This document shows positions 5,336 to 49,125 of a stretch of 64,000 nucleotides of DNA, piece by piece. The stretch is from a bacterium (GTDB lineage Bacteria > JAMCPX01). Within the stretch, counting starts at the first letter, position 1; each line of letters begins with the position of its first letter. Position numbers and translations under genes: made by a program. The notes below the pieces were generated by a model, which saw only the letters and a program-made list of their open reading frames with translations, ran no database searches and was not told the DNA's origin. The DNA lies in assembly GCA_021792615.1 (NCBI GenBank), contig JAJYUJ010000002.1, positions 1 through 64,000 on the forward strand, read 5' to 3'.

Positions 5336-5418
5336 AACAGAATGGGAAGCGGGCGTGATAGGTATTATAGGAACATCTGGCCCTGTTTTCTTATTTTCCT
5401 CTTCAATAGAAGTCCCGC

Positions 5419-5467: not shown

Positions 5468-5476
5468 GACAAAGTT

Positions 5477-6739: not shown

Positions 6740-6888
6740 GGCAAAAAGGAAGCCATGTTTTTTATAGTCATGCCGATGGAAGAATCACCACGGTTCCCGA
6801 TCATTCGGGGAGAGATCTTGCGCGCCATTTGATTTGAGAAATATTAAGGGAAATTGAGATTACACCGGACGAATTAAAGCTATATTGA
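6721..6888 (+). pseudogene. hicA toxin remnant (5' truncated, in-frame TGA)
   Basis: Frame 1 from 6721 reads LGFDRTRQKGSH, then VFYSHADGRITTVPDH, SGRDLARHLI, a TGA stop at 6835-6837, and EILREIEITPDELKLY before TGA at 6886-6888. This is the HicA double-stranded-RNA-binding-like toxin fold, including the catalytic-His context GSH and the TTVP..H strand. The stop probably replaced a CGA arginine codon (LIREIL). The first 20 or so residues and a hicB partner are missing. The sequence upstream of 6721 shows no HicA similarity, so the 5' end was lost by rearrangement. Confidence 0.65.
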
Positions 6889-7016
6889 AAAAGATATGAA
6901 ATCAGTTACTAAAAATTGCTATAACGGTTTGAACAATAGCCTTTTACCACTCTTTTTATAATCTTATCTTTTCTTTCCGATAAATTTCCGGTATCTATCG
7001 TCTTATAAGTAAACCA

Positions 7017-7087
7017 CGTTAGAAGTTCCTCAATCAATGGTGGATTTTTCATGGGGCAAAAAGTTATAAGCCGCCTAACTTCTAACG
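7017..7087. repeat. Inverted repeat upstream of the HNH nuclease gene
   Basis: CGTTAGAAGTT (7017-7027) and AACTTCTAACG (7077-7087) are exact 11-bp complements 49 bases apart, ending 17 bases before the nuclease start. It could be a leader stem or the ends of a lost small element. Confidence 0.4.
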
Positions 7088-7104
7088 GGGTAAAAGCAGG
7101 AGTT

Positions 7105-7662
7105 ATGAAAAACAAATTAAGAACAATGATGATGTTGCTTTTGTTGGGGATGTTTGCTCTGCCAACGATGGGTTCCGCTCAAATGAACCCGATCAATAAG
7201 CATACAAAAACCTTATCGCAACATCACTACTTAAAAATCCATACGATCATTGGGATAATCTACACGCCCACCACTATCGAAGGCTGCTTTTGTACTACTA
7301 CTTCAAAAGATTTTGCAGGACTGAGGTATAATCATTCTGTCCCTTATTGCAAAAGGCATGTCACCATGCACGAAAAGAACGAAATCGCTGGATTTTATAA
7401 CATCAAACCCCAGCAATACAAACACTATGAATTTGACCACCTCATCCCTCTATCTATCGGCGGGTCTAACAATGCATGTAACATCTGGCCCCAGCCGATC
7501 CGGCAGGCAAAGATTAAAGACAAGCTCGAACTGGAACTATACTATGCCGTTAAAGCCGGCAAGATTACCAGAAATCAGGCTATTAAAATAATATCCTACT
7601 GGTTCCACCACCCGTGCTCCGGCCTTGATAACCACAACCTGTGCAGGAATCACCGCCGATAA
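7105..7662 (+). CDS. Secreted HNH endonuclease-like protein
   Basis: 185 residues from the ATG at 7105, chosen because AGGAG lies 2 bases before it and a clean signal peptide follows (MKNKLRTMMMLLLLG...ALPTMGSAQ). Near residue 112 is YEFDHLIPLSIGGSNNACNIWPQP, an HNH motif (DH, N, N) with the typical WPQP and a downstream AKIKDK helix. Several cysteines (CFCTT, PYCKRH, HPCSG) suggest disulfides, consistent with export. The family is widespread but poorly characterised; it probably nicks or cuts DNA in the periplasm or outside the cell. No immunity gene is recognisable beside it. Confidence 0.75.
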   Translation: MKNKLRTMMMLLLLGMFALPTMGSAQMNPINKHTKTLSQHHYLKIHTIIGIIYTPTTIEGCFCTTTSKDFAGLRYNHSVPYCKRHVTMHEKNEIAGFYNIKPQQYKHYEFDHLIPLSIGGSNNACNIWPQPIRQAKIKDKLELELYYAVKAGKITRNQAIKIISYWFHHPCSGLDNHNLCRNHRR

Positions 7663-7765
7663 AATACCGTCCTTCCTTAAAAGCCCCCTGATGAGGGGGC
7701 CACAGGGGTTAAGCGAACCCACCTTCCGAAAAAAATCCGGGCATTGGGGGTCACACCTTGACACT

Positions 7766-7896
7766 CTGTTGAAAAACTCGGATTACTGTCATTGTGAACG
7801 AAGTGAAGCAATCTCGGTTTTTATAAATCAATAACTTATAGATTGTTTCATCGCAAAATCGCTCCTCGCAATGACATGCAGGGGCTTTTTCAACAG
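7766..7896. mobile_element. 131-bp MITE-like palindromic element
   Basis: It is bounded by an 11-bp terminal inverted repeat, CTGTTGAAAAA (7766-7776) and TTTTTCAACAG (7886-7896). Inside are imperfect inverted copies of the common GTCATTGCGAGGAGCGAAGC...GAAGCAATCT repeat (about 7789-7828 and 7838-7875). No coding capacity; it would need a transposase supplied in trans. Confidence 0.6.
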
Positions 7897-7953
7897 CCTG
7901 TTGACGTTGGACATTGATGGGATAGGAAGTGGTTGAAGATAAAATATGTGGAT

Positions 7954-8006
7954 CTGGATTCCCCCGCATCAGGGGCGGGGCAGGCTCCTCAAGTGCGGAA
8001 TGACGG
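7954..8006. repeat. Dispersed CTGGATTCC...GGAATGAC repeat
   Basis: It begins CTGGATTCCCCCGC and ends GCGGAATGACGGGG, matching the termini of the elements at 5310-5340, 9650-9812 and 30430-30490 in this window. Confidence 0.5.
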
Positions 8007-8172
8007 GGATGGGGAAGGGGAACAGATAAGGCTGAAGGAACGGGGACGCGTCTAAACATTACACTAACCGGAGAGCACGAAGGAGAGAGACGTGCTTGAT
8101 AACCTCGGCACGGCAGATTGCCGCCAGGTTAAAACCTCTGAAACCGGCATTGAGCAAGGAGATTGAACGGGT

Positions 8173-8233
8173 GCTCGCCGCAATCCCCGCTATTTATAGC
8201 AGCGGGCACACAGCGAAGCTGGGTCGGGCGAAC
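8173..8233. repeat. Hairpin repeat, copy A
   Basis: It shares a diverged core of the form YTCGCCGCAATCsCC...ACACAGC.AAGC with 12912-12967. In both copies the segment is bounded by an inverted CTCGCC/GGCGAA-type pair. It lies inside an open frame I consider spurious. Confidence 0.45.
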
Positions 8234-8484
8234 TATACGATTAACATATTCCTTACCGACGAAGAACCACACTGTTTACAGTTTGGTTCTTCAATTACTT
8301 GTGCAAAGAATAAAGCAAACAAAGTTCAGAATATAATATATAAGTATTACGGTTTTCGATTTAAATGCAAAGATAATGTCCCCTTATGCTCTCATGGAAT
8401 TTGCACTATCTGTGTTGTTTTTCCAGCAGATTGAATATCCATAACATAATGTGATATATAACTGCATGATTGGGAGCTCATGCA

Positions 8485-8871
8485 ATGAAAAAGGATGAAA
8501 TTGTAAAATACTGGCTTGATTCTTCAGATATTGATTTTAAGGCCATGGACAGCCTCTTTAACAATGGTCATTATGTATGGACGTTGTTTGTAGGTCATCT
8601 TGTTATTGAAAAACTGTTGAAGGCCTACTTCGTGAAGGTTGTGGATAATAATGCACCGCAGATACATCACTTGTTACAAATAGCAGAACGGTCAGGGCTT
8701 TCCCTTTCAGATTCTCAGAAAGATTTTTTATTGGAAGTGACCACCTTTAACTTGAAAGCCCGTTATCCGGATTACAAACAAAGGTTCTATAAAAAAGCTA
8801 CAAAGAGCTTTGCAGAAGAGTATATGAATAAGATTAAGGAGTTTAGAACATGGCTGTTAAAAAAATTATAA
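8485..8871 (+). CDS. HEPN-domain protein (HepT-like), first gene of second HEPN/MNT pair
   Basis: About 128 residues from ATG 8485 (a GGGAG site lies 8 bases before it). All-helical, with WLDSSDIDFKAMDSLF, then VGHLVIEKLLKAYFV, HHLLQIAERSGL and FNLKARYPDYKQRF, the order and motifs of the HEPN family linked to minimal nucleotidyltransferases. The RYPD segment takes the place of the RX4-6H catalytic motif, so canonical HepT RNase activity is doubtful. It overlaps the MNT gene by 22 bases. Its sequence is unrelated to the HEPN protein at 6024-6494 apart from the fold. Confidence 0.8.
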   Translation: MKKDEIVKYWLDSSDIDFKAMDSLFNNGHYVWTLFVGHLVIEKLLKAYFVKVVDNNAPQIHHLLQIAERSGLSLSDSQKDFLLEVTTFNLKARYPDYKQRFYKKATKSFAEEYMNKIKEFRTWLLKKL

Positions 8872-9173
8872 GACCGATCGAACAAGTTATTCGGAAATAT
8901 TTAAAGATCCTACGGGAAAACAATATACCAATATGGCACATATATCTGTTTGGTTCTTATGCAAAAGGCAGTCATAGTAAAGATAGCGATATAGACCTTG
9001 CTGTTTTCTGGGATAAGGATAACATTGACGGCTTTCTTGAAGATGTTCAGCTTCTCAAATTTACAAAAGACATCGATTTACGAATAGAACCTCATTCTTT
9101 TGCCAGAACGGACTTCGATAAAACAAATCCCTATATAAAGGAAATACTCAAAACCGGAAAAAGGGTCGCATAA
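8850..9173 (+). CDS. MNT-type nucleotidyltransferase (MntA-like antitoxin), second pair
   Basis: 107 residues. The signature GSYAKGSHSKDSDIDLAVF (GS-x10-DxD) is near residue 34, followed by a third acidic strand KDIDLRIEP. This is the standalone minimal nucleotidyltransferase of HEPN/MNT systems, where it AMPylates and silences the HEPN toxin. An AAGGAG ribosome site lies inside the HEPN gene. Unlike the pair at 5477-6494, this protein has no DNA-binding domain and comes after its HEPN partner. Confidence 0.85.
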   Translation: MAVKKIIRPIEQVIRKYLKILRENNIPIWHIYLFGSYAKGSHSKDSDIDLAVFWDKDNIDGFLEDVQLLKFTKDIDLRIEPHSFARTDFDKTNPYIKEILKTGKRVA

Positions 9174-9175
9174 TA

Positions 9176-9352
9176 GCCGCAAAATGGTTTTTGGTTCGTC
9201 CTGTTCCCTGTATCACGGTGTCCAATGCCGCGGAAACGGCATACTCTCTTGTTGAGACCATAGTGGTTTCGTGCATTCTGGGCATTTTGACGGCGATCTT
9301 TTTGAACACCGATACTGTTCAACATTTCCTTGGACTTGTGAAAATTATTTAA
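9176..9352 (+). pseudogene. Possible 3' fragment of a membrane-protein gene
   Basis: Frame 2 is open up to TAA 9350-9352 and reads WFLVRPVPCITVSNAAET followed by a strong hydrophobic helix (SLVETIVVSCILGILTAIFL) and a short tail. It has no ATG; GTG 9218 is possible. The helix near a C-terminus recalls the end of ABC-type permeases, but this is not enough to name a family. It may be a stub left by the rearrangements in this island. Confidence 0.25.
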
Positions 9353-9555
9353 TGAGAGACTATGGACAGAGCTGTGCAATCAGGGCGTAGCAAGCCCTGC
9401 CCCTCCAATAAAACAATTTCAGCATCCCCACTGGCAATTTATCCTGACTAAGGCGGGACGCTAAGAGAGGAGGATCTGCAGGCGGATATCGGAACTCAGC
9501 GCAATGATTAAAGATGGCGTCTGACGGGTTATTTATCCAATGTTCAGTATACTTC

Positions 9556-9987
9556 TGTCATTTAAAATTGAAAAGTGCGCTAATTTAAACTATACAAATT
9601 AGTTTATGGGAAAAAATTGATTGGTAGAAACATATCAATCTCAACGAGCTCGTCATTCCTGCCCATGGGCTTCTCCGCAGATATGCTTGAACAGGAATCC
9701 AGTTCTTAAAATAGTTCTCTGATTTCGCAGGGACGACGTCTAGATTCTAAATTTCTCGGAAATGACAAAGGAGTGCGAAACTGGATTCCCACTTTCGTGG
9801 GAATGACACAAAACCAGCGTAGACAGATTTATATAACCATTATCACAGACGGTGATTTGTTCTTTGATTCTCAATGGAGCAGAGATAAGATTAAGAAACG
9901 GCATTATTGCGTAAATGTAGAATTATTCGATCTAAAGTCAGTGCACTTTTGAACTTTATGGAGTTCACTTTTCAATTTTAAGCAACA
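9556..9987. mobile_element. IS21-like terminal repeats without transposase (solo ends or MITE)
   Basis: TGTCATTTAAAATTG... at 9556-9577 and its inverted partner at 9966-9987 match at 19 of 22 positions, including an uninterrupted TTAAAATTGAAAAGTG. The right end carries a second related copy (9941-9957), like the multiple terminal repeats of IS21-family elements. The 432-bp interior has no istA/istB, so this is a deletion derivative or a non-autonomous element. No target duplication is evident. Confidence 0.55.
9650..9812. repeat. GTCATTCC...GGAATGAC palindromic repeat nested in the IS21-like element
   Basis: It begins GTCATTCCTGCCCATGGGC and ends CACTTTCGTGGGAATGAC, with internal GGAATCCAG and CTGGATTCC copies in opposite orientation. 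Confidence 0.5.
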
Positions 9988-10005
9988 CCATTAAGGATAC
10001 TTCCC

Positions 10006-10473
10006 TTACCGGTGAGGACGGGATTGCTTACGTTTCTTTTCGAAGAACTCTTTCAAGAGCGCAGATGCTTTTTGATCGAGGATGCCCGGGACGACCTCAA
10101 CCCTGTGGTTCAGTCTTCCGTCGCTGAACATATCAAACAGTGTTAGTGCCCCTGCCTTCTCGTCGTAGGCACCGAATATAAGCTGCTGAATCCTTGCCTG
10201 TATCATTGCTCCGGCACACATGGTGCACGGTTCGATGGTAACATACAGCCTGATCCCTTTCAGCCGGTAATTGCCGAGTTTGTGCCCTGCCTCTCTGAGG
10301 GCAAGTATCTCCGCATGGGCAGAAGGGTCTTTCATGGCAATAACATTGTTGTGAGCACGGGCTATGACCATATCACCCATTACGGCAACGGCACCAACAG
10401 GTACCTCGCCCTGATCTTCTGCTTTGCGCGCTTCATGGAGCGCCATGGTCATATAATAAGCGTGGGTGTGCAT
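10006..10473 (-). CDS. tadA: tRNA-specific adenosine deaminase TadA
   Basis: 155 residues. It has the CDA-fold zinc motif HAEILALREA (His and catalytic Glu) near residue 53 and PCTMCAGAMIQARI near residue 82. TadA converts A34 to inosine in tRNA-Arg(ACG), needed to read CGN codons. Length is normal. It follows the amidase gene by 21 bases on the same strand and is probably co-transcribed. The IS21-like end lies only 18 bases past its stop. Confidence 0.95.
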   Translation of the reverse strand: MHTHAYYMTMALHEARKAEDQGEVPVGAVAVMGDMVIARAHNNVIAMKDPSAHAEILALREAGHKLGNYRLKGIRLYVTIEPCTMCAGAMIQARIQQLIFGAYDEKAGALTLFDMFSDGRLNHRVEVVPGILDQKASALLKEFFEKKRKQSRPHR

Positions 10474-10494
10474 ACCGGATTACAACGGCCTAAC

Positions 10495-12318
10495 TCATTG
10501 TTCTGCCATCTTTATCTTTGTTCCATACCTGAGTATGCCTTTGACGACCCCGTCCACAATACTCTCCTCGTATCGCTTTTCTTCGAGCTGGTGTTCTTCG
10601 GTCGGGTTTGTCACAAAAGAAGTTTCTATGAGGATACTCGGCATATTAGCATGCATAAGTACAAAGAATGGTGCACTCCTCACCCCAAGGTTCGGTGTGG
10701 TATAGCCGTCTTTCCGTAAGCTTTCGACCATGTCTTGCTGGATGTCGTTTGCAAAAATTGCAGATTCGTTTATCTTCGCTGTTTTCATAAGGTCCTCGAG
10801 AATCAATTGAAGATCACTCAGTTTTTTTGTTGATGTGGCATTCTCCCGCGCAGCGACAAGCATGGATGATCGGTCGTGCGTTGTACTTAAATAATATGTT
10901 GTTATACCCTTTGTCCTGTGGCTCAGGCTTGCATTGGCATGGATGGATATGAAAATATCGGCATTGCTCATGTTCGCAATAGCCGTTCTTTCTTCAAGCG
11001 GAATAAAAACGTCTTTATTCCTTGTCATAATTACATGGAACCCCATTGCCCGCAATCTTTTCGCAAGCATGGTACCGATCTTGAGTGTTATGTTCTTTTC
11101 CTCGACGCCGTTGGGGCCGATTGCTCCGGGATCATGGCCGCCGTGGCCTGGGTCGATAACGATTTTCTTGATGGACAAAGAGGCATTGCTCTGCGGGGTC
11201 ATTACCGGTATTATGGGTTGCGCTTGCTTGTTTATAGTCTCATAATCTTTTATAATCCTTGCTATGGAGAGTCTGGCATCTCCCGTTGCCTGGGTCGGCT
11301 GTTCCGCGGTGGTTTCAGAGAGTTTCCCGCCCTGTGCTTCTTTTTCTGCTCCGACTTTTTTGCCCTTAACATCGATGATGATCCTGAACGGGTCTTCCAG
11401 ATTGAATATGGAATAGTCGCTTATGTCTCCGACATCCAGTACGACCCTGGCCGTGTTGCTGTTGAATTGTCCGGCCCTGACCTCTTCAACGAGTCCGTCT
11501 TTTACGGATATGGGCGGGGTATCGCAGGTGAGCGTTGTCCCTTTTAGGTCAACGTATATTCTTTTCCCCGGCATATCGTCTTCCTTTTGTTCAAGCAAAT
11601 GACCCGAGTAAACCACCTCATTCGAGACGTTGATTACGACACGGGTATAATCGGCCGCCGACCATACCTTTATACCGTTCACGACGGCAGCTATTTTTTT
11701 TGCATGGGCCGGTTGTTTTACCGTTATACTCCCTCCCAATTTTTTTACCCATATTCTCGCCATGGGTGCAGAGTTACTGCCCGGATATTTTTCGAGTATC
11801 ATTCTATAAAAACGGAGTGCGGTTTCCGTATCGCCCTTTTTTGTCCTGTAGATTTCAGCAATCTTAAACAGGGCATCGTCTGCGAGTGTATTCTTTTTAT
11901 AGACCTGCTGGAGCGTTCTAAATGCGCTTATGCCGGCGTCGAGATCTTTATCAAGAAATGATCTTGTGTAAAGATTGTTATAAAGGTTGCCGATGTTATA
12001 CAGCGCCTTGGGTGCATAACTGCTCTTTGGATATTTTTTGTATACTTGCTCAAATTCATTGATAACATTGAGCCAGGTATCTCTGTATTGCTGTTTTTGT
12101 TTGCTGGAGATGAGGATGTAGTAGTTTTTTACACCTGCGGCATACAACTGTTCCGCCTTGTTGTTTTTTGCCGAGCCATACGCGGATACATGTGCGGTTA
12201 AGGACAGGGCTAAAACGGTAAATCCTGTGAGTGCAGTTTTAATGGCGGTTTTACCCTTAAGAAGAAACAAATATTTTCTTTTTTCTCCACCCGTATTAAA
12301 TGCTCGGTTCCATGGCAT
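10495..12318 (-). CDS. N-acetylmuramoyl-L-alanine amidase with TPR-like and AMIN domains
   Basis: 607 residues. An N-terminal signal segment (about residues 22-48) is followed by helical TPR-like repeats (50-200, with APKALYNIGNLYNNL and ADDALFKIAEIYRTK), an AMIN domain (about 215-320) and an Amidase_3 domain (about 385-595). The amidase zinc ligands appear in VIDPGHGGHDPG, the Glu in GVEEKN, and SIHANAS; IETSFVTN carries the catalytic Glu. It cleaves the amide between MurNAc and L-Ala during cell separation, placed at the septum by the AMIN domain (AmiC type). The extra TPR region is common in this phylum. Start codon choice is uncertain as no clear ribosome site precedes the first ATG. Confidence 0.92.
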   Translation of the reverse strand: MPWNRAFNTGGEKRKYLFLLKGKTAIKTALTGFTVLALSLTAHVSAYGSAKNNKAEQLYAAGVKNYYILISSKQKQQYRDTWLNVINEFEQVYKKYPKSSYAPKALYNIGNLYNNLYTRSFLDKDLDAGISAFRTLQQVYKKNTLADDALFKIAEIYRTKKGDTETALRFYRMILEKYPGSNSAPMARIWVKKLGGSITVKQPAHAKKIAAVVNGIKVWSAADYTRVVINVSNEVVYSGHLLEQKEDDMPGKRIYVDLKGTTLTCDTPPISVKDGLVEEVRAGQFNSNTARVVLDVGDISDYSIFNLEDPFRIIIDVKGKKVGAEKEAQGGKLSETTAEQPTQATGDARLSIARIIKDYETINKQAQPIIPVMTPQSNASLSIKKIVIDPGHGGHDPGAIGPNGVEEKNITLKIGTMLAKRLRAMGFHVIMTRNKDVFIPLEERTAIANMSNADIFISIHANASLSHRTKGITTYYLSTTHDRSSMLVAARENATSTKKLSDLQLILEDLMKTAKINESAIFANDIQQDMVESLRKDGYTTPNLGVRSAPFFVLMHANMPSILIETSFVTNPTEEHQLEEKRYEESIVDGVVKGILRYGTKIKMAEQ

Positions 12319-12339
12319 GATAAATGTTTATAGCCTGCC

Positions 12340-12891
12340 TTAGTACCAGAAGGGTCCATAAGGATAATATCCCCAGGGAGGGAACAGAGCGGGGCCATAA
12401 TCAAACCCGAGGCCGATGGAATATGCCGGCAGATTACTCCGGTGAACGATTGGCCACAGTTTGATATAGGTTGTGTCTATAACAGGAAAAACGTACGGCA
12501 TACTGCCTATGGTCCCCTTTTGGGGTGCTGCAACAACACCGACAACGGTAACAAATCTGCCCGGTCTGAATATGTGCGTTTCGAGGTACCCCCTGTATAC
12601 GGCTATGAATCTTCCGGACGACCGGTCGCCTTTTTCCGGCTTGTAATTGCTTTCGAGCGGCAGTTCCATTATTTCAAGCGAAGTGGTCCCGCTACTTTCA
12701 TTTACAGAGCTGATAACCTCGCCTCCTGTCATGACCGTTTTGCCCTTATAGCCAGACGGGTCCTTTATCAGCAGATTGAATGTTATGGCCGTATCAACAT
12801 TTGAAATTATATTTTGAGGAATCTCCTTTGCACAACCGGCAACTGCAATCAATGAGATTACAAGTAACATAGAGCTTAATGTCTTTACCAT
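12340..12891 (-). CDS. Slp-family outer membrane lipoprotein
   Basis: 183 residues from ATG 12891, preferred over a start 138 bases upstream because an AAGGAGGAAG site lies just before it and a lipoprotein signal ending VAGC follows. The mature part shows the OB-like pattern of the Slp/YeaY family (GGEVISSV, LEIMELPL, GRFIAVYRGYL, VTVVGVV). It ends in an aromatic, Pro/Gly/Tyr-rich tail (PPWGYYPYGPFWY), a common end for such proteins in this group. Its role in the outer membrane is not established. It is 21 bases upstream of the amidase gene. Confidence 0.8.
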   Translation of the reverse strand: MVKTLSSMLLVISLIAVAGCAKEIPQNIISNVDTAITFNLLIKDPSGYKGKTVMTGGEVISSVNESSGTTSLEIMELPLESNYKPEKGDRSSGRFIAVYRGYLETHIFRPGRFVTVVGVVAAPQKGTIGSMPYVFPVIDTTYIKLWPIVHRSNLPAYSIGLGFDYGPALFPPWGYYPYGPFWY

Positions 12892-13230
12892 ACTTCCTCC
12901 TTGAGCAGGCCGTTCGCCGCAATCGCCTCCGTGTATACCGGCGCGAACACAGCAAAGCCTGGCGAACTCTATTATAAACCAATTACTCGCCAGGGAAGAA
13001 TCCATGCTGTGTACAGCACAGCTCTGCACTGTTTTACACAGTATATATCATCTTTCATAAAATTTAAAGCTATTGTTGCTTCTCCACAGTCGTGCGACAG
13101 ACGGCGACAATACCGGGCTTGCAGATTGAACAGATCAAACTACACAAAAAACAGAAATCCGGTAATTTGTTTTATTATAATTTCCTCCCGGTTCCTTTAC
13201 ATCCTGCCGCATTTTTATTAAATAGATTGC
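12892..13230. other. Divergent intergenic region with hairpin repeat
   Basis: It lies between the Slp operon (minus) and the histidine kinase (plus). Apart from the repeat at 12912-12967 and a TGTGTACAGCACAGC-type short palindrome near 13007, nothing is recognised; promoters for both directions must lie here. Confidence 0.4.
12912..12967. repeat. Hairpin repeat, copy B
   Basis: It is bounded by GTTCGCC (12912-12918) and GGCGAAC (12961-12967), exact complements, with a core similar to 8173-8233. Confidence 0.5.
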
Positions 13231-14268
13231 ATGCAGATGCAAAACAACGTTATCAATAAATGGCTTCTTATAATCGTCATCTCTTTTTTTACGATTATGT
13301 TTCACTATATGTACGGTATGTCACACGCATCGGTGCTGGAAGCATTCCACAGAAGGCTGTGCTATATACCGATTGTTCTTGCAGGTCTGTGGTTTGGAAT
13401 AGAAGGAGGCATCGTAACGGCAGCGGGCATCTCGCTGGCAGTGCTCCCGTTTATTTATATGCAGAGATCCATGGGACATGATTTTGTTTCAGGAGAGCTT
13501 GTCGAGGTCCTGTTTTACGGGGTTATCGGAGTTCTGACCGGTACGCTTTCCGATGCGCAAAGGCGTGAACGTAAAAAAAATGATGAACTGAAAGAACAGG
13601 TCAGGGTATCGGAACGTCTCTCCACCATAGGTGAACTGTTTGCCTATATGATGCACGAGATTAAAAACCCTTTGAGCTCAATCAAAGGTGCTGCGGACAT
13701 CGTTGCGGATGAATCAGTAATTCCGGAACGAAAAATTGAGTTTGCCGGTCTGTTAAAAAGCGAGATAGGAAGGCTGAACCGCACGCTTGATTCGATGCTT
13801 TCTTTTACACGGACGAATCTTGCTTTGGAAGCATGCGACATGGGTGCAGAGATCGGCAGGATCATAAGCTTATTCAACGTACAAACCGAAAAAAGCCATG
13901 TAAGAATAAGTCTGTCCTTAAAAGAGCCTATTACCATCCGTGTTGATTGCGATAAAATGCGGCAGGTTTTTATTAACCTTATGCTTAATGCAATACAAGC
14001 CATGGGCAATGGCGGGAAGCTGGAAATAACCATCCGGAGAGCGGGCAATGACGGTGTCGAGATTTTGTTCGTAGATACAGGCCCCGGTATACCGCCCGAT
14101 CTTATCAATAGCGTATTCAAGCCTTTCTTTACAACCAGGAAGGACGGATCAGGGCTTGGGCTTGCCATTGCAAAGCGAATTGTTGAGGAACATAAAGGAA
14201 AAATCCTTGTTCAGAGTACGCCTGGTAAAGGTACGATATTTACGGTGAGGCTGCCATGGGGACAGTAA
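13231..14268 (+). CDS. Membrane sensor histidine kinase (NtrB/ZraS-like)
   Basis: 345 residues. Three or four N-terminal hydrophobic helices (about 9-110) form a membrane sensor region with no large periplasmic loop. Then comes a HisKA domain with the phosphorylated His in MMHEIKNPLSS, and a HATPase_c domain with N box (INLMLNAIQAM), G1 (DTGPGIP) and G2 (GSGLGLAI). The signal is unknown. It overlaps the sigma-54 activator gene by 13 bases and is clearly its cognate kinase. Confidence 0.93.
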   Translation: MQMQNNVINKWLLIIVISFFTIMFHYMYGMSHASVLEAFHRRLCYIPIVLAGLWFGIEGGIVTAAGISLAVLPFIYMQRSMGHDFVSGELVEVLFYGVIGVLTGTLSDAQRRERKKNDELKEQVRVSERLSTIGELFAYMMHEIKNPLSSIKGAADIVADESVIPERKIEFAGLLKSEIGRLNRTLDSMLSFTRTNLALEACDMGAEIGRIISLFNVQTEKSHVRISLSLKEPITIRVDCDKMRQVFINLMLNAIQAMGNGGKLEITIRRAGNDGVEILFVDTGPGIPPDLINSVFKPFFTTRKDGSGLGLAIAKRIVEEHKGKILVQSTPGKGTIFTVRLPWGQ

Positions 14269-15587
14269 CCATCCTTATCGTCGATGATAATGAGGTTCAA
14301 AGAAAGGTCATAGAGTTTAACGTTTCCAGAGAAGGCTATACGGCCATTGGTGCAGGTACGGTCAGTGATGCCCTGGTGCTCGCGAAGCAGCATCAGCCCA
14401 AACTCGTCATAACCGATGTTATGTTGCCGGATGGCAATGGTATTGAGCTGCTGGAAAGACTCTTGAGTACAAATCCGGAGCTTCCTGTGATAGTAATAAC
14501 GGCATACGGAACCGTTCGCATGGCGGTTGATGCGATAAAAAAGGGAGCTTTTGACTACCTGACAAAGCCTTTTGAAAAAGAAGAGCTTTCGCTTTCCATA
14601 AAACAGGCGTTACTCGGTAAAGGCGGAATGGAGCACCACGCCAGTCATGGTATCATCGGCTCTTCCTTGGCCATCAAAGAAATACTCGGCACAATAAAGC
14701 GTATTGCTGATTCGGATGTGCCGGTCCTCATCACGGGTGAGTCAGGCACCGGCAAGGAGGTCATCGCACGCGCTCTCCATTCCTCTGGCAACAAAAAAAA
14801 TAAGGCATTTGTTGCCATCAATTGTGCGGCCATTCCTTCGGACCTGCTTGAAGCCGAGCTGTTTGGATACGCAAAAGGCGCATTTACCGGCGCTATCAAA
14901 GATAAAGAAGGCAGATTTTCGCTCGCAAACCAGGGCACCCTGTTTCTCGACGAAATAGGGAGCATGGATATCAGATTACAGCCAAAGCTGTTGCGTGCGA
15001 TAGAAACCGGCACCATAGAAAGACTCGGTGATGTCGAGGTAAAAAAGATCGATGCAAGGATCGTATCAGCCACGAATGCCGACCTTGCGGACTTAATCAA
15101 AAAGGGAGCATTCCGGGAAGATCTCTATTACAGACTCAACGTCGTCCATATACACATTCCTCCACTGCGGGAACGCAGGGAGGATATATCCCTGCTCGCC
15201 GGACATTTCTTAAGCCAGTATGCTCCCGGAGGAAAGCTCGTGCTCAGCAATAAAGCAATAAACAGGATTGTCAATCATCCATGGTACGGAAATGTACGGG
15301 AGCTCCAGAATTTTATACGGCGGGCCGCGGTGATAAAGGACGGCGGGACGATCACGGAGCAGGACGTTGAATCGAACCTGTCTCCATCCGTTTCCCTGCA
15401 CGAGCATACGTCTGCTATCGTTGATGAATCCATGGATGAGGCCGAAAAACGCATGATCGTATCTGCTCTGGATAAAGCAGGATACAATAGGTCCAAAGCG
15501 GCAAAGATTCTAAAAATACCGAGATACAAGCTTATCTATAGAATAAAAAAATATAAGATAGTTGCCCCAAAAGATGCATTCGAATGA
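14256..15587 (+). CDS. Sigma-54-dependent response regulator
   Basis: 443 residues: receiver domain (about 4-118; phospho-Asp in ITDVMLPDGNG, Lys in LTKPF), AAA+ domain (about 135-370; Walker A GESGTGKE, the sigma-54 contact GAFTGA, Walker B GTLFLDEIG, Arg finger region FREDLYYRLN) and a C-terminal Fis-type HTH (NRSKAAKILKIPRYKLIYRI). All key residues are present, so it should activate RpoN promoters when phosphorylated. Targets are not evident in the window. It ends 27 bases from the convergent YkgJ gene. Confidence 0.95.
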   Translation: MGTVTILIVDDNEVQRKVIEFNVSREGYTAIGAGTVSDALVLAKQHQPKLVITDVMLPDGNGIELLERLLSTNPELPVIVITAYGTVRMAVDAIKKGAFDYLTKPFEKEELSLSIKQALLGKGGMEHHASHGIIGSSLAIKEILGTIKRIADSDVPVLITGESGTGKEVIARALHSSGNKKNKAFVAINCAAIPSDLLEAELFGYAKGAFTGAIKDKEGRFSLANQGTLFLDEIGSMDIRLQPKLLRAIETGTIERLGDVEVKKIDARIVSATNADLADLIKKGAFREDLYYRLNVVHIHIPPLRERREDISLLAGHFLSQYAPGGKLVLSNKAINRIVNHPWYGNVRELQNFIRRAAVIKDGGTITEQDVESNLSPSVSLHEHTSAIVDESMDEAEKRMIVSALDKAGYNRSKAAKILKIPRYKLIYRIKKYKIVAPKDAFE

Positions 15588-30554: not shown

Positions 30555-33128
30555 TTAATACAGTGTTGCGCCCGGTATATTTGAACCGGTCAGATCGTAG
30601 AACGCCTTCTGGAGTAATTCAACATCGAACTCCGTATTGTGAATACCCATACTGCCTTCATTCGCAACAACATTATAATTGTACACAGCATCCAGTTCTT
30701 GTTGAGTAAAGGTGTCCGTAAAACTGAATCCTGCAGTACCATTCGAAGGTGATAAGACATTGGCGGTCCCTCTTGCTGTAGGTATATTAACCGTCCAAAC
30801 CACAGGGTTACCGTTTATATCAACCGTATTTGCCGTGCAGGTGCCTGCAGATGTTGGAGTACTGGTTGTCGTAATAGCACATGCGATCACACTCAAGAGT
30901 CCCTGGACGCGGTCCTGCACTCCTTCCTGGCCCTCAATTGCTGTTGAACCGTCCCAGTCCGGGACAGAGGTTGCAAGTCTTGGCTCAACCCACGTATCAA
31001 AGCCGGTCACGATATTCCCATCACCTGTTCCTGTCGGTACCCCGACTATATGGCACTGGGCACACGACTCTGTATCATCAACAAGCCCGTCAGACATGGC
31101 AAAGCTATGGTTGCCCGTCGTAACTGTAAAGTACGATGGATTGTACATATGACACGTCACGCACAGGTCTTTACCGTTCGTAGATGACAGGGCGCCTGTC
31201 GTATGCGGTGAACTCTGCACCGTAGCAGCATACGCACCCGCACCTACCAGGGTAAATCCTTGTCCCGCTGCAAACACCTCGGCTGTTGTGTGATGTATAT
31301 CAACTGCTGAAGCGGCTGCTGCTGCTGCTGACGTAGAGCCTGCCTGGCTCAAAGCCAAAGCGTTCTGAATAGCTGAATTGGGGTTTGACGTCTGGTCCGT
31401 ATGACACATGGTACATATCGCACCCGCGCCAACGTTGGTGAGGGTAAAGCTGCCACCTGCAACAGCCTCCGACCCATAAAGTCTGAGTTGATTTGGATTT
31501 GCAGCACTGTGCGGGTCATGACACGCAACACAGTTTACCGGGTATGGATTTGTTACTATGGTAGGTGGCTGACCTTCAAAGTTTACTGCCACTATCTCTT
31601 GAGAAACGTGGCACTGAACACAGCCTAAATTCTTGGTCACAGATCCGCCTGCTGCTGTCAGGCTCTGTGCATGTACCGATGTCCTCCATTCATTTGGTAT
31701 ATCCTCGTCATCTGTATCATCGTGGCACTGGAAACACACGGACTGATCGTAGCTGAGTGTACCGGTATGAACGCTGCCCGGGCCATGACAATTTTCACAC
31801 TGTATATTGCTCATGTTCTTCAGCGACTGCGGCATAGTGTTCCAATTGTTATAGTTTATTGCATAGCTGTCATTGTTTGCTACAAACGGGAATATCCATC
31901 CGGATGCCTCATAAGCACTCCACCACCCGTTACTTGAAACCGTTTGTTCCGGCGTATCCCCCAGTGTATGGCAGCCGGCACAATGAAGTGTATAGTTATC
32001 ATCATCCTGATAGTCGCCGTTAATCATTTTGGTAAACATGGTTGCATGCTTTGTTCCGAGCCATGGGCCAACCGTCAAAGGTGCATTTGCCACGTTGCCG
32101 TTATGGCACTGCGCACACTCCTGCCATCCCACGTAGGTTCCCGCATTCACGGTGAGTTCCTGACCCGACACAGCCTCGAGGAACACATACTGTCCCGCAA
32201 TATCCGGTGTAAAACTGGGTGTTTGAGATGCCGGGTTTGTAAGGGCAGTTACATCCGAGCCGCCGGGTGCGGAAACAACCTGCCAGTTCCAGGTCGATTG
32301 TGTGCCCCCGTTTGTACCGCCGTCAAGGTACTGGGTAATACCTATGGGAACATTTTTTAAACCGCTGGTCATGGACGCAGGGGCTATATAAACTGTCGTC
32401 GTCGAGGTATTCGTACCATCGGAAACGGTGAGCTGAAATGCAAAGTCATTGCTATTGGCATAATTACCGGCCCCAAGCCAGGCCGAGATACCAAGCATAC
32501 CAAACCTGTCCGGTATCTGGACCGGCACATCGAGTGATGAGAAAAATTGCTGTAAGGTCGGCAGTTGAACTTGCAATGTCGCGTTACTTGTACCGTTAAG
32601 AAATGTCACGGGCGCGGCTATAAATTGCCCTGCATAGTTTGGAACCTGTGTCCATGAATAGGTTAACGACTTCCCGGACGCGCTTGTACTTGCACTGCCG
32701 TCTATAGTAACGACAGCGCCGTATCCCACATCCCATTGATCTTTACCCGCATTGGCGATGATCGGTACAGACGGCGGAGCAGAAAGCTGGAATGGTATGT
32801 TCATGGTCTTACCCGCGACGATAGAAATATACCCCGTAGTTTGTGATATGAAACCGCCCATTGACGCTGTGATCTGATAGATACCGACCGGTACATTTTG
32901 AATTGTAAAATTGCCGTTTGTATCCGTTGTAGCGGAAAACAAGGCAGGTGAGACTGTTACCAGTGCGCCGGGTAACGGCTTTTTCGTTGCGGTATCAACA
33001 ACACTTCCGCTTATGGTACCCGAGCTCAACCCTGCGGAGCCTGTCGAACCTTTACAACCTGCCATTACAAGACTTACGAAAAGTCCTGCAATAAATAGAC
33101 ATATATATTGTTTAGAAACTATTTTCAT
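30555..33128 (-). CDS. Nine-heme cytochrome c lipoprotein with carboxypeptidase-regulatory-like domain
   Basis: 857 residues. A lipoprotein signal ends VMAGC (Cys24). A carboxypeptidase-regulatory-like beta domain (about 37-112: GSVVDTATKKPLPGALVTV, TDTNGNFTIQNVPVG) is followed by PKD/Ig-like beta domains (about 115-330). The C-terminal half holds nine CxxCH motifs (CAQCH, CAGCH, CENCH, CFQCH, CVQCH, CVACH, CTMCH, CVTCH, CAQCH; about residues 338-690). It is probably on the outer membrane or in the periplasm and conducts electrons, perhaps extracellularly; the partner is unknown. It has its own terminator and a divergent neighbour, so it is likely a single-gene unit. Confidence 0.88.
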   Translation of the reverse strand: MKIVSKQYICLFIAGLFVSLVMAGCKGSTGSAGLSSGTISGSVVDTATKKPLPGALVTVSPALFSATTDTNGNFTIQNVPVGIYQITASMGGFISQTTGYISIVAGKTMNIPFQLSAPPSVPIIANAGKDQWDVGYGAVVTIDGSASTSASGKSLTYSWTQVPNYAGQFIAAPVTFLNGTSNATLQVQLPTLQQFFSSLDVPVQIPDRFGMLGISAWLGAGNYANSNDFAFQLTVSDGTNTSTTTVYIAPASMTSGLKNVPIGITQYLDGGTNGGTQSTWNWQVVSAPGGSDVTALTNPASQTPSFTPDIAGQYVFLEAVSGQELTVNAGTYVGWQECAQCHNGNVANAPLTVGPWLGTKHATMFTKMINGDYQDDDNYTLHCAGCHTLGDTPEQTVSSNGWWSAYEASGWIFPFVANNDSYAINYNNWNTMPQSLKNMSNIQCENCHGPGSVHTGTLSYDQSVCFQCHDDTDDEDIPNEWRTSVHAQSLTAAGGSVTKNLGCVQCHVSQEIVAVNFEGQPPTIVTNPYPVNCVACHDPHSAANPNQLRLYGSEAVAGGSFTLTNVGAGAICTMCHTDQTSNPNSAIQNALALSQAGSTSAAAAAASAVDIHHTTAEVFAAGQGFTLVGAGAYAATVQSSPHTTGALSSTNGKDLCVTCHMYNPSYFTVTTGNHSFAMSDGLVDDTESCAQCHIVGVPTGTGDGNIVTGFDTWVEPRLATSVPDWDGSTAIEGQEGVQDRVQGLLSVIACAITTTSTPTSAGTCTANTVDINGNPVVWTVNIPTARGTANVLSPSNGTAGFSFTDTFTQQELDAVYNYNVVANEGSMGIHNTEFDVELLQKAFYDLTGSNIPGATLY

Positions 33129-33310
33129 AGCGTCTCCCTTCTTGTACTATTCTATTACTTTTGGGAATATCTTAAATAAAGAACTTATGCAATAAAAATT
33201 TTAACAGTGAGTGGCATAAAAACAATTTACGGACAGTCTGCCCAATGGTGTATATGCAATCGGTTGTTTTTGTTTTGCTTTAACGATGAATATCGGGTAT
33301 AAAAACAGGG

Positions 33311-39693: not shown

Positions 39694-42150
39694 ATGTGTA
39701 AAAAACATTTATTTTTATTTCTTTCATTGATGTTTTTTATTGGTTTCACCGGCATGGCAGGTTGCGGCAGAACCAGCACCAGCAATTCGACACCGGCTTC
39801 GCCATACTGGGGAGCAAACGGCTATTCTCTGAGCCCGGCAGGCGTCCAGATCGGGAACAGTTCTTTTACCGCGCCTGATCGCAAAGCCATACCCCAACCG
39901 AGCGAGATGGCGGTAACGCCGGATGGGAAAACAGCCCTTGTTTTGAGCACAGGATGGGTCACGTATGCAGGCAAGAGCCACATGATAACGGCCATAGACA
40001 CTGCGACAGACCAGATTGCCTCATACATTTCTCTGACGACACCACCGCTCGGATACGAGAGTTTTGACGGTATGGCAGTCAATAGTTCGAGCACGGACGT
40101 GTACATACCGGGTATAGAAGCACAGAGGGGCTACGTGCTTGATGTGGGGATAGGAACAGGCAGCAGTCTTAGCTTCAAACAGGCAATACCTCTCAAGCCT
40201 TACATAACATCCACCTTTGGTTCACCGACGCAGGTGTGGCCGACAGCAGCAGGCATTGCAGTATACGGCAACATCTTAATTACCGCAAATAATGTCGCTT
40301 ATGACGCCATCGGCAATCAGTGGCCCGGTGAAACAGTCTCTATTATAGACCTTTCAACGAATACCCAGACTTTTACCTTAACAACGGGAGGATTTTACCC
40401 ATGGGCGGTAGCCATAACCCCGAACGGCCAGGATGCTTATGTCGTCAACCGGCAATCCAATAACGGTGCGGGGACTGTTTCCGTCATTTCTTCCCTCGGG
40501 TCAACACCGACGGTTACAACGATAATACCGTTAAACCAGGTAGGCTCTGCAGCAATCATATCTTCTTTGAACGGGAGCAAGATGTACGTTGCAAATACAC
40601 TGAGCGATACGGTCAGCGTTATTGATACATCAACCAACTCGGTAACCGGCACCATATCCCTTGCAATGTTCAGCACCGAGCCTTCCATGGGAGGCATGCC
40701 GAACAACCTTGCGCTCTCAGGAGACGGCAAGTACCTGTATGTATCCATGGGTTCTGACAATGCCATCGCTGTTATTGATACTGCATCAGATCAGGTTGTA
40801 GGAAGGATCCCTACTGCCGTGTACCCATCCGGCGTTGCATTTGACACGGCGAACAACCATATTTTTGTTGCGAACATGTACGGAGTGGGACACGGGCCCT
40901 ATATACCCGCAAGCTATAGTCATGTCTATGACTTTGCAAATTATGCGTGGTTTTGCTATGGCTCCGTATCGGACATACCCCAGCCATCTACCGCACAGCT
41001 TGCGGCATATACAAACCAGGTGCTGAACAATGATTTCGTACCCACAAAGAACCCGCACCCGCCTGTTCCGGCAAATATCATGAGTGCATGGTCGAATATA
41101 AAGCACGTCATTTATATTCTGAGAGAAAACAAAACAACCGATATGGAATTCGGGGATCTTGGTACACAGGCAAATGTCGCTCCCGTTCCATGCCCGTTCC
41201 TTTCTGCCGGCAGCATTTATGCTTTCAGTTTATTACCTGCATCGTATGGCTGCAGCAACCCGAACGCCAACGGAGCCGGTATCGGGTTTACCACACCCAA
41301 CACCCATGCACTGGCGAGTCAGTTCGCCCTCGATACGAACTTTTATCTCGATATCGTGCCCTCGATATGCGGACATCCCTCGTCGTTTCAGGGCATGATC
41401 AGCGATTATCTCCAGAGGATCTGGTCTATCAATACGGGGTACGGTGGTAAGAACAGGTCAGGAGATTCCGGCGAACCCATAGCATCGGTCCCGAGCGGGA
41501 CGATCTTTGATGCACTGAAGAATGCGGGCATAACATTCTCTGTTTTCGGACAGGGCATGCCCTCGATCTACAATGGTCCCTTTAACAATAATAATCCGTT
41601 AAATTTATTGCCTGAAATTGATCAATCCTACAGCGGGAATGACATTAGCGATGTAACAAAGGCAGATTACTTTATTAAGAATTTCGTTCAAACCAACAAC
41701 CTGCCAGACTTTGTATTTATGTCATTGGGAGACGACGGATACGAACCGACAGATACCCCCATAGCTGCTTACACGGAAAACGATGCTGCAACAGCAGCGG
41801 TTGTGCAAGCAATTTCAAACAGTAAATACTGGGGCTCTACCGCTATATTCATCGATGAGGACGACCCGCAGCCCGGCTTCGATCATATAGACCAGGAGCG
41901 CTCGTTTATCATTGTTGTCAGTCCGTACGCGAAGCACGGATATATTTCTACCGCCCACTATGGATTTGCGAGTGCGCTCAGGACCATAGAAATTATCCTG
42001 AGCCAATCTACCGGCAAAACCCTCTCACCGATGACGGAGTTTGATGCCACAGCCTTGCCGATGTATGATATGTTTCAGGCAACCCCGATCATGACACCGT
42101 TTACGGCAATGCCCGTGACATGGAATTCGGTTGGATGGTCGCGCAATTAG
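39694..42150 (+). CDS. Beta-propeller and phosphoesterase (PLC/acid phosphatase family) lipoprotein
   Basis: 818 residues. A lipoprotein signal ends MAGC (Cys24). Residues about 60-420 form YVTN-type beta-propeller repeats (TAIDTATDQIASYI, VSVIDTSTNSVTGTI, IAVIDTASDQVVGRI). From about 465 there is a phosphoesterase domain of the alkaline-phosphatase superfamily: HVIYILRENKT, NTHALASQFALDTNFY, FIDEDDPQPGFDHI, VVSPYAKHGYI. It may hydrolyse phospholipids or phosphate esters in the periplasm or outside. A broken relative lies at 55600-55950. A good ribosome site (AGGAGGAGGG) and a downstream terminator suggest a single-gene unit. Confidence 0.88.
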   Translation: MCKKHLFLFLSLMFFIGFTGMAGCGRTSTSNSTPASPYWGANGYSLSPAGVQIGNSSFTAPDRKAIPQPSEMAVTPDGKTALVLSTGWVTYAGKSHMITAIDTATDQIASYISLTTPPLGYESFDGMAVNSSSTDVYIPGIEAQRGYVLDVGIGTGSSLSFKQAIPLKPYITSTFGSPTQVWPTAAGIAVYGNILITANNVAYDAIGNQWPGETVSIIDLSTNTQTFTLTTGGFYPWAVAITPNGQDAYVVNRQSNNGAGTVSVISSLGSTPTVTTIIPLNQVGSAAIISSLNGSKMYVANTLSDTVSVIDTSTNSVTGTISLAMFSTEPSMGGMPNNLALSGDGKYLYVSMGSDNAIAVIDTASDQVVGRIPTAVYPSGVAFDTANNHIFVANMYGVGHGPYIPASYSHVYDFANYAWFCYGSVSDIPQPSTAQLAAYTNQVLNNDFVPTKNPHPPVPANIMSAWSNIKHVIYILRENKTTDMEFGDLGTQANVAPVPCPFLSAGSIYAFSLLPASYGCSNPNANGAGIGFTTPNTHALASQFALDTNFYLDIVPSICGHPSSFQGMISDYLQRIWSINTGYGGKNRSGDSGEPIASVPSGTIFDALKNAGITFSVFGQGMPSIYNGPFNNNNPLNLLPEIDQSYSGNDISDVTKADYFIKNFVQTNNLPDFVFMSLGDDGYEPTDTPIAAYTENDAATAAVVQAISNSKYWGSTAIFIDEDDPQPGFDHIDQERSFIIVVSPYAKHGYISTAHYGFASALRTIEIILSQSTGKTLSPMTEFDATALPMYDMFQATPIMTPFTAMPVTWNSVGWSRN

Positions 42151-48279: not shown

Positions 48280-49125
48280 CTACTTCAATATTTCATTGAT
48301 AATCTGCACAAACGCCTCTTCCGGCTGTGCGCCCTGGACGATCCTGCCGTTTATGACAAAGGTCGGCGTTGCACTGACTCCGATGCTGTTTCCCTCTTTT
48401 ACGTCCCTCTCAACCATCGGCTTCGTCTGCTGTTTGTCAACGCATGTTTCGAATTTGCTTACGTTCAGCTTGGTATCTTTGGCATATCCCTTGAGCTTGT
48501 CACCGACATTATCAGGCGTTATAGAACCCTGCTCCTGAAACAGGTGATCATAAAAATACCAGAACGAGGCATGGTTCTGTTCATACGCACAATCAGCGCC
48601 GATCGCAGCCTTCATTGCCCACGGATGCATAGGGAGAGGGTAGCTCTTGTATACGAGCTTTATCTTACCCGCGTATTTCAGCAAAAGATCCTCTACCGTA
48701 CTGTAAGCCCTTCCGCAGAAAGGACACTCGAAATCCGTAAACTCGACCACCGTGACCTTTGCCCCTGCGGCACCCCTTACCGGTGAGCCGTTGAGCGTAA
48801 TCTTGCTCCAGGTCTCTTTTAACGGGTCCTCATTAAGATTGAAGACCTTGCCGAGGATAAGATATTTGCCGTTCCTTGATATATAGATATCCTGGGTTTG
48901 CTTCCTTTCACCGATAGAAACATTAACGACGGACTTTTCCAGTCCCGGCACCTCTGATGCTGAAATATGTCCAACAGAGATTTTTACATTCGCGGGTATA
49001 TTAAACGCCTTTCGCATGTATGCGGTAATTTTTTCTTTTAACACGGTCTCATTCGTCAACCCATAAGCAATACCGCTGCTCAATAAGAGCAATGATAGTG
49101 CAACTGCCACATTTTTCAATCTCAT
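48280..49125 (-). CDS. DsbA/DsbG-like periplasmic thiol-disulfide protein
   Basis: 281 residues. A Sec signal peptide (cleavage near AYG, residue 22) is followed by an N-terminal alpha/beta domain (about 25-105) similar to the DsbC/DsbG-like dimerisation or 'DUF' part, then a thioredoxin fold with CPFC (near 135) and cis-Pro in SATPTFVINGR. It should oxidise or shuffle cysteine pairs in exported proteins; cytochrome c maturation partners are plausible given the cytochromes nearby. No dsbB or vkor is seen in the window. Confidence 0.88.
   Translation of the reverse strand: MRLKNVAVALSLLLLSSGIAYGLTNETVLKEKITAYMRKAFNIPANVKISVGHISASEVPGLEKSVVNVSIGERKQTQDIYISRNGKYLILGKVFNLNEDPLKETWSKITLNGSPVRGAAGAKVTVVEFTDFECPFCGRAYSTVEDLLLKYAGKIKLVYKSYPLPMHPWAMKAAIGADCAYEQNHASFWYFYDHLFQEQGSITPDNVGDKLKGYAKDTKLNVSKFETCVDKQQTKPMVERDVKEGNSIGVSATPTFVINGRIVQGAQPEEAFVQIINEILK

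Follow-up and report, generated by a model that had tools for sequence, protein, structure and literature searches.

What does a lipid-anchored cytochrome with nine hemes do beside a set of sulfur genes? The question is raised by an open reading frame on the minus strand of a 64,000-nucleotide stretch of bacterial DNA (positions 1 to 64,000 of contig JAJYUJ010000002.1, assembly GCA_021792615.1, GTDB lineage JAMCPX01), which is here called the window. An original prediction, made from the sequence alone, described the product as a nine-heme lipoprotein with carboxypeptidase-regulatory-like and PKD-like domains, suited to moving electrons at the cell surface, possibly to solids or partner cells, and encoded close to a sulfur cluster but independently transcribed. 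The analysis presented here indicates that it is probably an outer-membrane lipoprotein in which a nine-heme domain of the OcwA type is carried on a stalk of three beta domains and transfers electrons outside the cell.

The open reading frame is a genuine gene. A ribosome-binding site lies 6 nt 5' of the ATG, and two orthologues from the same genus are 84% and 85% identical to the window protein. One of these gave a nonsynonymous divergence (dN) of 0.094 and a synonymous divergence (dS) of 1.89, which is near saturation, and hence a dN/dS of about 0.05, a figure that comes from this orthologue only, as the second gave no computable dS. CXXCH motifs occur at residues 338, 383, 444, 465, 503, 533, 572, 656, and 689; all nine heme motifs have this form, and further CXXC pairs are absent from the protein. 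In 2000 shuffles of the protein, the mean number of such motifs was 0.015 and the maximum was one. The lipobox (LVMAG-C25, with Lys at +2) conforms to the general lipoprotein pattern, and its G24 and C25 are invariant across 17 aligned sequences of the lineage, the window protein among them. The original description as a nine-heme lipoprotein with CarboxypepD_reg and PKD-like domains is thus borne out by the nine motifs, by Cys25, and by two Pfam matches above cut-off.

Kinship of the heme core

Relatives were collected by a scan of named genome contigs, which yielded at least 326 relatives among 586 pattern matches, and the best 80 loci were kept. The relatives come from Verrucomicrobiota, Chloroflexota, Myxococcota, Acidobacteriota, Ignavibacteriota, Nitrospirota, Bacteroidota, Calditrichota, and other phyla. 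Those nearest the lineage that carry a name are metagenome-assembled genomes labelled 'bacterium', such as DBS2-1.bin173 and WY2.bin9, and one labelled 'Deltaproteobacteria'; going by the sample names, an origin in acid mine sites is possible. The nonaheme is matched in all nine genomes of the lineage's own family (G000–G008). Among 51 other sampled genomes, the best match (G014) covers residues 383–854 at E 2.9e-19, and none of the matches listed spans the whole protein. Three alignments were used: A1, with the 17 lineage sequences; A2, with 52 of the 80 loci plus the window protein; and A3, with the heme cores of 67 of the 80 loci plus that of the window protein (68 in all).

The single window sequence matches OcwA (PDB entry 6i5b) at only E 0.0018, and the match strengthens to E 1.1e-9 with profile A1 and to E 2.4e-32 with profile A3. 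The second PDB entry matched by A3 (6qvm, E 3.4e-25) is an undecaheme S-layer cytochrome, which is taken to be OmhA as the species, the eleven hemes, and the length of 681 residues agree. Further matches follow, with NrfA at best E 3.6e-16, eight-heme nitrite reductases from E 1.4e-13, MccA at E 4.3e-9, and cytochrome c554 at E 5.2e-5.

Fold comparison gives a similar order. The 50 matches listed for the whole model in a Foldseek search were mostly Ig-tandem, pilin, and carboxypeptidase chains, which are uninformative on the hemes, and the heme half (residues 325–857) was therefore folded alone. The resulting model, from the 68-row alignment, has a predicted local distance difference test score (pLDDT) of 76.5 and a predicted template modelling score (pTM) of 0.81. 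In a VIA comparison it resembles OcwA at Z 15.2 (325 of 483 residues, root-mean-square deviation 3.4) and 6qvm at Z 14.9; eight-heme and five-heme nitrite reductases reach Z 9.3–10.8 and hydroxylamine/hydrazine-type enzymes Z 7.0–7.7. Foldseek returned three chains with E below 0.001, namely 6qvm and two chains of 6i5b, at template modelling (TM) scores of only 0.41–0.44; the model is thus loosely packed overall. The aligned pieces of OcwA keep the same order all the way from heme 1 to the C-terminal motif G(I/V)HN, with the pieces around hemes 1 and 2 individually weak. Profile and predicted fold agree in assigning the heme half to the OcwA/OmhA branch of the NrfA superfamily, a kinship that the original prediction had not included.

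Two other family assignments were considered and rejected. The Pfam model for MtrC/MtrF domain II/IV matches at 40.6 bits (cut-off 30), but it is unspecific, since 50 of 53 relatives and an octaheme cytochrome also match it; the TIGR03507 model of the MtrC/OmcA family gave 22.1 bits against a cut-off of 209.3, for a protein with nine hemes. The UshA-like model NF041198 gave 66.4 bits against a cut-off of 275, with its best stretch confined to residues 328–476. There is no MtrC, OmcA, or OmcS chain among the fold matches listed, which by itself still leaves room for a likeness.

The window genome holds three nine-heme paralogues, two of them absent from the original account: type A (the window protein), type B, which is 45% identical to it, and type C, which is 32% identical over residues 13–514. 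Nine CXXCH motifs were also found in the uncut paralogues that were fetched, and across the genome there are 418 CXXCH codon patterns versus 170 for a control pattern. In a tree of 88 heme cores (71 of the 80 loci and the 17 lineage sequences; a quick search supported by the Shimodaira–Hasegawa-like approximate likelihood-ratio test only), types A and B form one clade and types C and D another, each with support of 100, and a split with the same support separates them. As the two clades lie on opposite sides of this split, the lineage holds two separately derived kinds of nonaheme. A glycoside hydrolase family 31 protein is encoded beside a type C/D nonaheme at L017:12253–14292, and likewise at L044, L045, L046, L047, and L064. 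This assignment is based on Pfam for L017 and L045 and on similarity for the other four loci, and L045 and L064 appear to be one contig from two collections.

The stalk

The whole-protein AlphaFold model (pLDDT 79.7, pTM 0.74, 53-row alignment) places three consecutive beta domains before a mostly helical heme part. The first is matched by PF13620 (CarboxypepD_reg) over residues 38–115 at 63.1 bits (cut-off 32.3), and its model resembles the transthyretin-like domain of carboxypeptidase D (5aq0) at Z 14.0 over 81 residues. The second matches a K319L-like PKD model at 29.6 bits (cut-off 27), with the best stretch at residues 136–167; it consists of beta strands in the model and resembles 2yhg at Z 10.4. 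Both were named in the original prediction, and a domain search recovers them, but the third beta domain, which lies just before heme 1, had been missed. The C-terminal part beyond the hemes contains helices at residues 737–753, 809–824, and 832–847 and the motif EGSMGIHN, which includes His830.

Profiles of the stalk domains built from the 17 lineage sequences match unequally among the 80 relatives: the first and second domains are each found in 17 and the third in 72, frequencies that are skewed upwards, as the relatives were picked by similarity to the whole protein with a profile that includes the stalk. The stalk is therefore variable at its membrane end and near-constant beside heme 1. 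Paralogues B and C also carry CarboxypepD_reg. The original wording of 'beta adhesion-type domains' holds as far as the beta domains go, while adhesion finds no support: a stalk or spacer is what the CarboxypepD_reg and Ig/PKD-like domains seem to form. From the typical length of an Ig domain, three such domains could raise the heme domain by an estimated 10 nm or so off the membrane, a reach that would suit contact past lipopolysaccharide and mobile access to a donor.

Location and proposed function

Relatives provide much of the evidence on location. A C-terminal sorting domain of the type IX secretion system (T9SS; TIGR04183, type A) scores above cut-off in all nine tested relatives from T9SS-bearing phyla (Bacteroidota, Ignavibacteriota, Calditrichota, and Marinimicrobia), and is absent from the single Verrucomicrobiota relative that served as control. 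The scan excluded two relatives from T9SS phyla (L131 and L135) and their unplaced tree neighbour L137. In the broader set of relatives, the domain was found in 7 of 53. Substrates of this system are exported to the cell surface.

Gene maps of 14 of the 80 loci have a nonaheme, then a seven- or eight-heme gene, then a barrel-like gene. The nonaheme is the matched family member at three of these loci, and at the other 11 it is a second protein of 549–643 residues, which matches the family profile at 181–229 bits. The Pfam scan of barrels covered L065, L066, and L067: the L065 barrel is an MtrB_PioB protein (38.2 bits, cut-off 23), and the L066 and L067 barrels resemble it and match no Pfam family. 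The remaining 11 barrels resemble those of L066 and L067, not that of L065 directly. By analogy, the nonahemes of these 14 loci would occupy the place of MtrC in a porin–cytochrome conduit. Porin–multiheme clusters, several with an extracellular cytochrome, have been reported from Verrucomicrobia in the part of the article available (He et al. 2017, PMC5615132).

In the window lineage itself, the lipobox, the stalk, an acidic composition, and these features of relatives suggest that the protein is exposed at the surface. Its isoelectric point (pI) is 4.5, with 21 Lys and Arg among 857 residues; those of AprA and Sat are 6.9 and 8.0. A role in surface electron transfer, as originally proposed, gains support from homology to OcwA and OmhA, from the T9SS domains of relatives, and from their porin–cytochrome-like neighbours, and the protein's own location enters the argument as a likelihood. 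According to the available text of the two sources, OcwA is a surface terminal reductase (PMC6703420), and OmhA is a surface cytochrome that is most abundant in ferrihydrite-grown cells (PMC7829351).

In the proposed mechanism, the three beta domains would hold the heme domain away from the outer membrane. Electrons would be taken up at a single site in the chain of hemes and passed to an acceptor outside the cell, or drawn from a donor there. Candidate partners include Fe(III) minerals, humics, soluble shuttles, and a neighbouring cell; electrons may flow in either direction, and the solid or partner cell named originally is a candidate among these. Seven hemes would act as bis-His electron carriers, and heme 5, an NrfA-like site with His612, would stay open to a substrate or shuttle. 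The OcwA-type site at heme 2 would here be without its distal His.

Candidate heme ligands

This assignment of hemes follows from conserved His residues outside the motifs. Across the 53 aligned rows, His454 and His540 are found in 53; His361, His486, His642, and His674 in 52; and His830 in 51. Seven candidate distal ligands for nine hemes would leave two hemes open, as in OcwA. The pairing of individual His residues with individual hemes is a proposal from the alignment. A further residue, His612, lies between hemes 7 and 8 and is kept in 51 of 53 rows. In the profile alignment it falls on the THPAS motif of NrfA, whose His is presumably the active-site His, and near the HHP of OcwA and OmhA, and it probably marks the heme-5 pocket.

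OcwA has six bis-His hemes and a His-Met heme 9; its other two hemes, 2 and 5, are open, and each has a His-His motif nearby (PMC6703420, available text). One His-His pair of OcwA lies between hemes 4 and 5 and would correspond, through a numbering offset, to the published heme-2 pair. The aligned stretch of the window protein reads DDTDDED, and type A has no His between heme 4 and the Trp that precedes His486. Of the 88 tree rows, 81 contain nine CXXCH motifs, no more and no fewer; 29 of these have the His-His pair at this position, 33 a single His, and 19 no His. The single His was scored by a simple rule, and four such rows (L068, L082, L084, and L091) are doubtful, as the His scored there probably represents the following distal ligand. 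None of the 14 rows of types A, B, and D has the His, so that these types make up 14 of the 19 His-less rows, and type C has the pair in four of four. Of the two His-His pockets that characterise OcwA, the heme-2 pair is missing and the heme-5-region His is kept, so the window protein has most likely lost one pocket, judging from the alignment. His642 stands opposite a Met-containing stretch of OcwA, and heme 9 is probably bis-His rather than His-Met.

Weighing the evidence

Several points count against a role in electron transfer outside the cell. The sequence of a lipoprotein does not reveal whether it is exposed at the surface, and exported proteins are not acidic as a rule here, the protein encoded at 48283–49125 having a pI of 8.8. 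The family also reaches monoderm phyla and so extends beyond diderms, as it has members in Chloroflexota, which are mostly monoderm. Searches for a conduit in the nine family genomes found no MtrB_PioB barrel (PF11854), although none of 14 control genomes passed either, so that the sensitivity of this search is not shown, and no match to the L067 barrel, a query run with no positive control; other porin families were not searched. No multiheme gene adjoins the nonaheme, and the only other one in the window, at 1–489 (+), is the C-terminal end of a multiheme protein with three CXXCH motifs, cut by the contig start. The fold models and the profiles share a type of alignment and are not fully independent, and the stretch around His612 has a pLDDT below 50 in the whole-protein model and about 70–80 in the heme-half model. 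Finally, OcwA has no lipobox and stalk before heme 1, where the window protein has a lipobox and three beta domains, and OcwA also reduces nitrite and hydroxylamine (PMC6703420).

This last point leads to the best-surviving alternative, a lipoprotein of the outer membrane that faces the periplasm and acts as an enzyme of the NrfA kind at heme 5, reducing nitrite, hydroxylamine, or another small oxyanion, or detoxifying nitric oxide. The matches of the heme half to NrfA and the eight-heme nitrite reductases, in profile and in fold, and the alignment of His612 with THPAS would suit such an enzyme, and by analogy with OcwA, whose nitrite reduction is slow (kcat 1 per min in the available text of PMC6703420), the window protein keeps some chance of a catalytic role. 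However, the surface proteins OcwA and OmhA are closer than NrfA in both sequence and fold, relatives bear T9SS sorting domains or adjoin porin-like gene sets, no nrfH-like multiheme gene is adjacent, and the protein has nine CXXCH motifs and no other CXXC. An enzyme of this kind is accordingly judged unlikely.

Less probable again is a storage or wiring cytochrome that moves electrons along the surface or between cells, to a syntrophic partner or to other surface cytochromes, with no terminal acceptor. The loss of the heme-2 pocket in types A, B, and D, with its retention in type C, would fit such a role, as would the presence of several paralogues within one genome, but the conservation of His612 indicates that an open site is probably retained at heme 5. 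Electron transfer to or from a partner outside the cell remains the preferred explanation.

Genomic context and transcription

The strand of the nonaheme carries, downstream of it, a CoA-disulfide-reductase-like gene that includes a rhodanese domain and scores below its family cut-off, and then sat, aprB, aprA, two HdrA-like genes at the qmoA and qmoB positions, and qmoC. NCBIfam cut-offs are passed by sat, aprB, aprA, and qmoC. The stop codon of the nonaheme is followed by a stem of nine pairs and seven T, in a 71-nt stretch with a fold energy of -25.9 kcal/mol (z -3.95), and the next gene starts 269 nt beyond the stop. Because of this terminator and gap, transcription of the nonaheme on its own is plausible, as originally proposed, and a transcript shared with the sat cluster is unlikely; a promoter scan found no convincing promoter directly 5' of the gene, and in that respect the proposal goes without support. 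Over the whole scan there were six terminators versus 4.7 in shuffles and 12 promoters versus 9.3, neither of which is a clear excess. Coordinates of the features are given in Table 1.

Table 1. Features of the nonaheme gene and its borders (window coordinates)
Feature	Position	Strand	Basis or detail
Nine-heme stalked lipoprotein, type A of the lineage	30555..33128	-	ATG start, 857 aa
Ribosome-binding site AAGGGAG	33134..33140	-	Sequence
Signal peptide with lipobox, predicted lipidation site Cys25, Lys at +2	33054..33128	-	Sequence
CarboxypepD_reg (prealbumin-like) domain, residues 36–118	32775..33023	-	Pfam and structure match
PKD/Ig-like domain, residues about 121–251	32376..32768	-	Pfam, model strands, structure match
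Third beta domain just before heme 1, residues about 256–331	32136..32363	-	Model and profile
Nine-heme core, residues 332–733	30930..32135	-	CXXCH motifs, alignment, profile, model
C-terminal part, residues 734–857	30558..30929	-	NrfA/OcwA-type helices and small beta insertion
Intrinsic terminator directly 3' of the stop codon	30512..30532	-	Terminator scan and folding

The place near the sulfur cluster, which the original prediction had remarked on, is kept within the genus only. Type A lies near a sat homologue on the same strand in the four same-genus genomes in which it was found (G000–G003; the window, L053, L054, and L055), and it has different neighbours in G005 and G006. The aprA gene scores above cut-off in five of the nine family genomes and dsrA in seven; in G006 and G007, which are 92% and 95% complete, neither does, although at this completeness their absence is not certain. 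G006 keeps type A, and both genomes keep other nonahemes, so the tie to sulfate reduction is loose. As the conserved position does not extend to G005 and G006, a link to sulfate is not needed, and the cytochrome is probably not part of the sulfate pathway, even though the two co-occur in the genus. That the protein is a partner of the adjacent sat–apr–qmo genes, in sulfate reduction or in sulfide oxidation by the reverse route, is thus very improbable: the shared position in four genomes, and the divergent arrangement, in another lineage (L065), of a nonaheme and genes that include aprBA homologues, would speak for it, but the differing neighbours, the nonahemes of G006 and G007, the strong terminator, and the location of Sat and AprAB in the cytoplasm and of Qmo at the inner membrane all speak against it. 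At the L065 locus (2371–15018, from Deltaproteobacteria metagenome-assembled genome Meg19_1012_Bin_441), a nonaheme, an eight-heme gene, and the MtrB_PioB barrel follow one another, and the genes that diverge from them encode a molybdopterin oxidoreductase, a 4Fe-4S-type protein, and the aprBA homologues.

Other predicted exported proteins and multiheme loci were noted in passing. The window gene at 48283–49125 (-) encodes a thioredoxin-like protein related to the Rcas_1661 (seleno)lipoprotein family (106 bits, cut-off 190), and that at 39694–42150 (+) a predicted lipoprotein of 818 residues and pI 4.6 with a YncE-like beta-propeller and a phosphoesterase domain (PF04185, 56 bits). A few kilobases past the window end (L153:1509–9196, C67:65508–73195), a 16-heme cytochrome that scores 425 bits against the HmcA model (cut-off 400) is adjoined by iron–sulfur and membrane subunits, as in an Hmc-type complex. 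Elsewhere in the genome, a cluster that encodes 11-, 7-, 9-, and 17-heme proteins and a short protein of membrane type (L150:5873–13709, G000:C32) is possibly an inner-membrane quinol–cytochrome complex. An octaheme cytochrome (L020:6302–10851, G000:C71; Pfam Multi-haem_cyto, 110 bits) is divergent from a TonB-dependent receptor with CarboxypepD_reg and a TonB gene, and multihemes of similar size match in other family genomes.

A possible wider class

A broader proposal is advanced tentatively, as a possibility that falls somewhat short of being probable: stalked OcwA-type nonahemes may form a broad class of outer-surface electron-transfer proteins, mostly in diderms, that take the place of MtrC/OmcA. 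If this is true, the class would be secreted by the T9SS in some phyla and paired with MtrAB-like conduits in others. In the window lineage, which has dissimilatory sulfur genes, it would be lipid-anchored with no conduit found so far, and would point to an outer-membrane route that has not been described.

The kinship between OcwA and Gram-negative nonahemes is itself already known, as Gavrilov et al. (2021) placed OcwA within a subclade of nonahemes from Gram-negative bacteria (PMC7829351, available text). Among the papers listed in the literature searches, none describes a stalked and lipid-anchored architecture, T9SS tails in the family, or OcwA relatives in porin–cytochrome sets, although a search in other words, or subscription papers, may yield one. 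What is made explicit here is the architecture outside Gram-positives: a stalk together with either a lipid anchor or a T9SS tail, and sometimes an outer seat like that in porin–cytochrome sets. This signature can be used to search uncultured phyla for outer-surface electron transfer where markers of the MtrB and OmcA/MtrC type fail, and a lineage with dsr, apr, and sat genes is found to have a protein of this kind.

Comparison with known systems

MtrC and OmcA are likewise lipid-anchored proteins that combine beta domains with multiple hemes. Their ten hemes are divided between two pentaheme domains, accompanied by two split barrels, whereas in the window protein three beta domains precede a single block of nine hemes. 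The putative porin–multiheme complexes of freshwater Verrucomicrobia (PMC5615132, available text) are comparable in that related nonahemes, at 14 of the 80 loci, stand where the extracellular cytochrome would be; as a difference, no MtrB_PioB barrel was detected in the nine genomes of the window lineage, in a search of unshown sensitivity.

Pentaheme NrfA and the octaheme nitrite reductases, which are periplasmic enzymes, share the superfamily fold and the C-terminal helices with the window protein, at the Z scores given above, but have fewer than nine hemes. Most NrfA have an active heme bound by CXXCK (PMC6703420, available text), a motif that the window protein lacks.

OmhA of Carboxydothermus ferrireducens is closer, as its C-terminal heme core is covered by the profile, and its cell-surface location counts as a likeness in so far as the window protein is also at the surface. 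It differs in having eleven hemes and a Gram-positive host, and it is not known to have a lipobox–stalk arrangement.

The closest known system is OcwA of Thermincola potens JR, reportedly described earlier as a terminal reductase of Gram-positive thermophiles, which would deliver electrons to minerals and electrodes. It shares with the window protein nine c-type hemes, a collinear alignment, the highest fold score, and the His of the heme-5 region. Unlike the window protein, OcwA belongs to the cell wall of a Gram-positive bacterium and has its heme 1 close to the N terminus, and it contains a beta-sheet domain of its own within the heme domain (PMC6703420, available text). The window protein, for its part, lacks the heme-2 His-His motif and has His642 where OcwA has its Met-containing stretch. 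Since both His-His pockets belong to the OcwA pattern and one of them is missing, the window protein is classed as a variant of the OcwA type rather than as OcwA itself.

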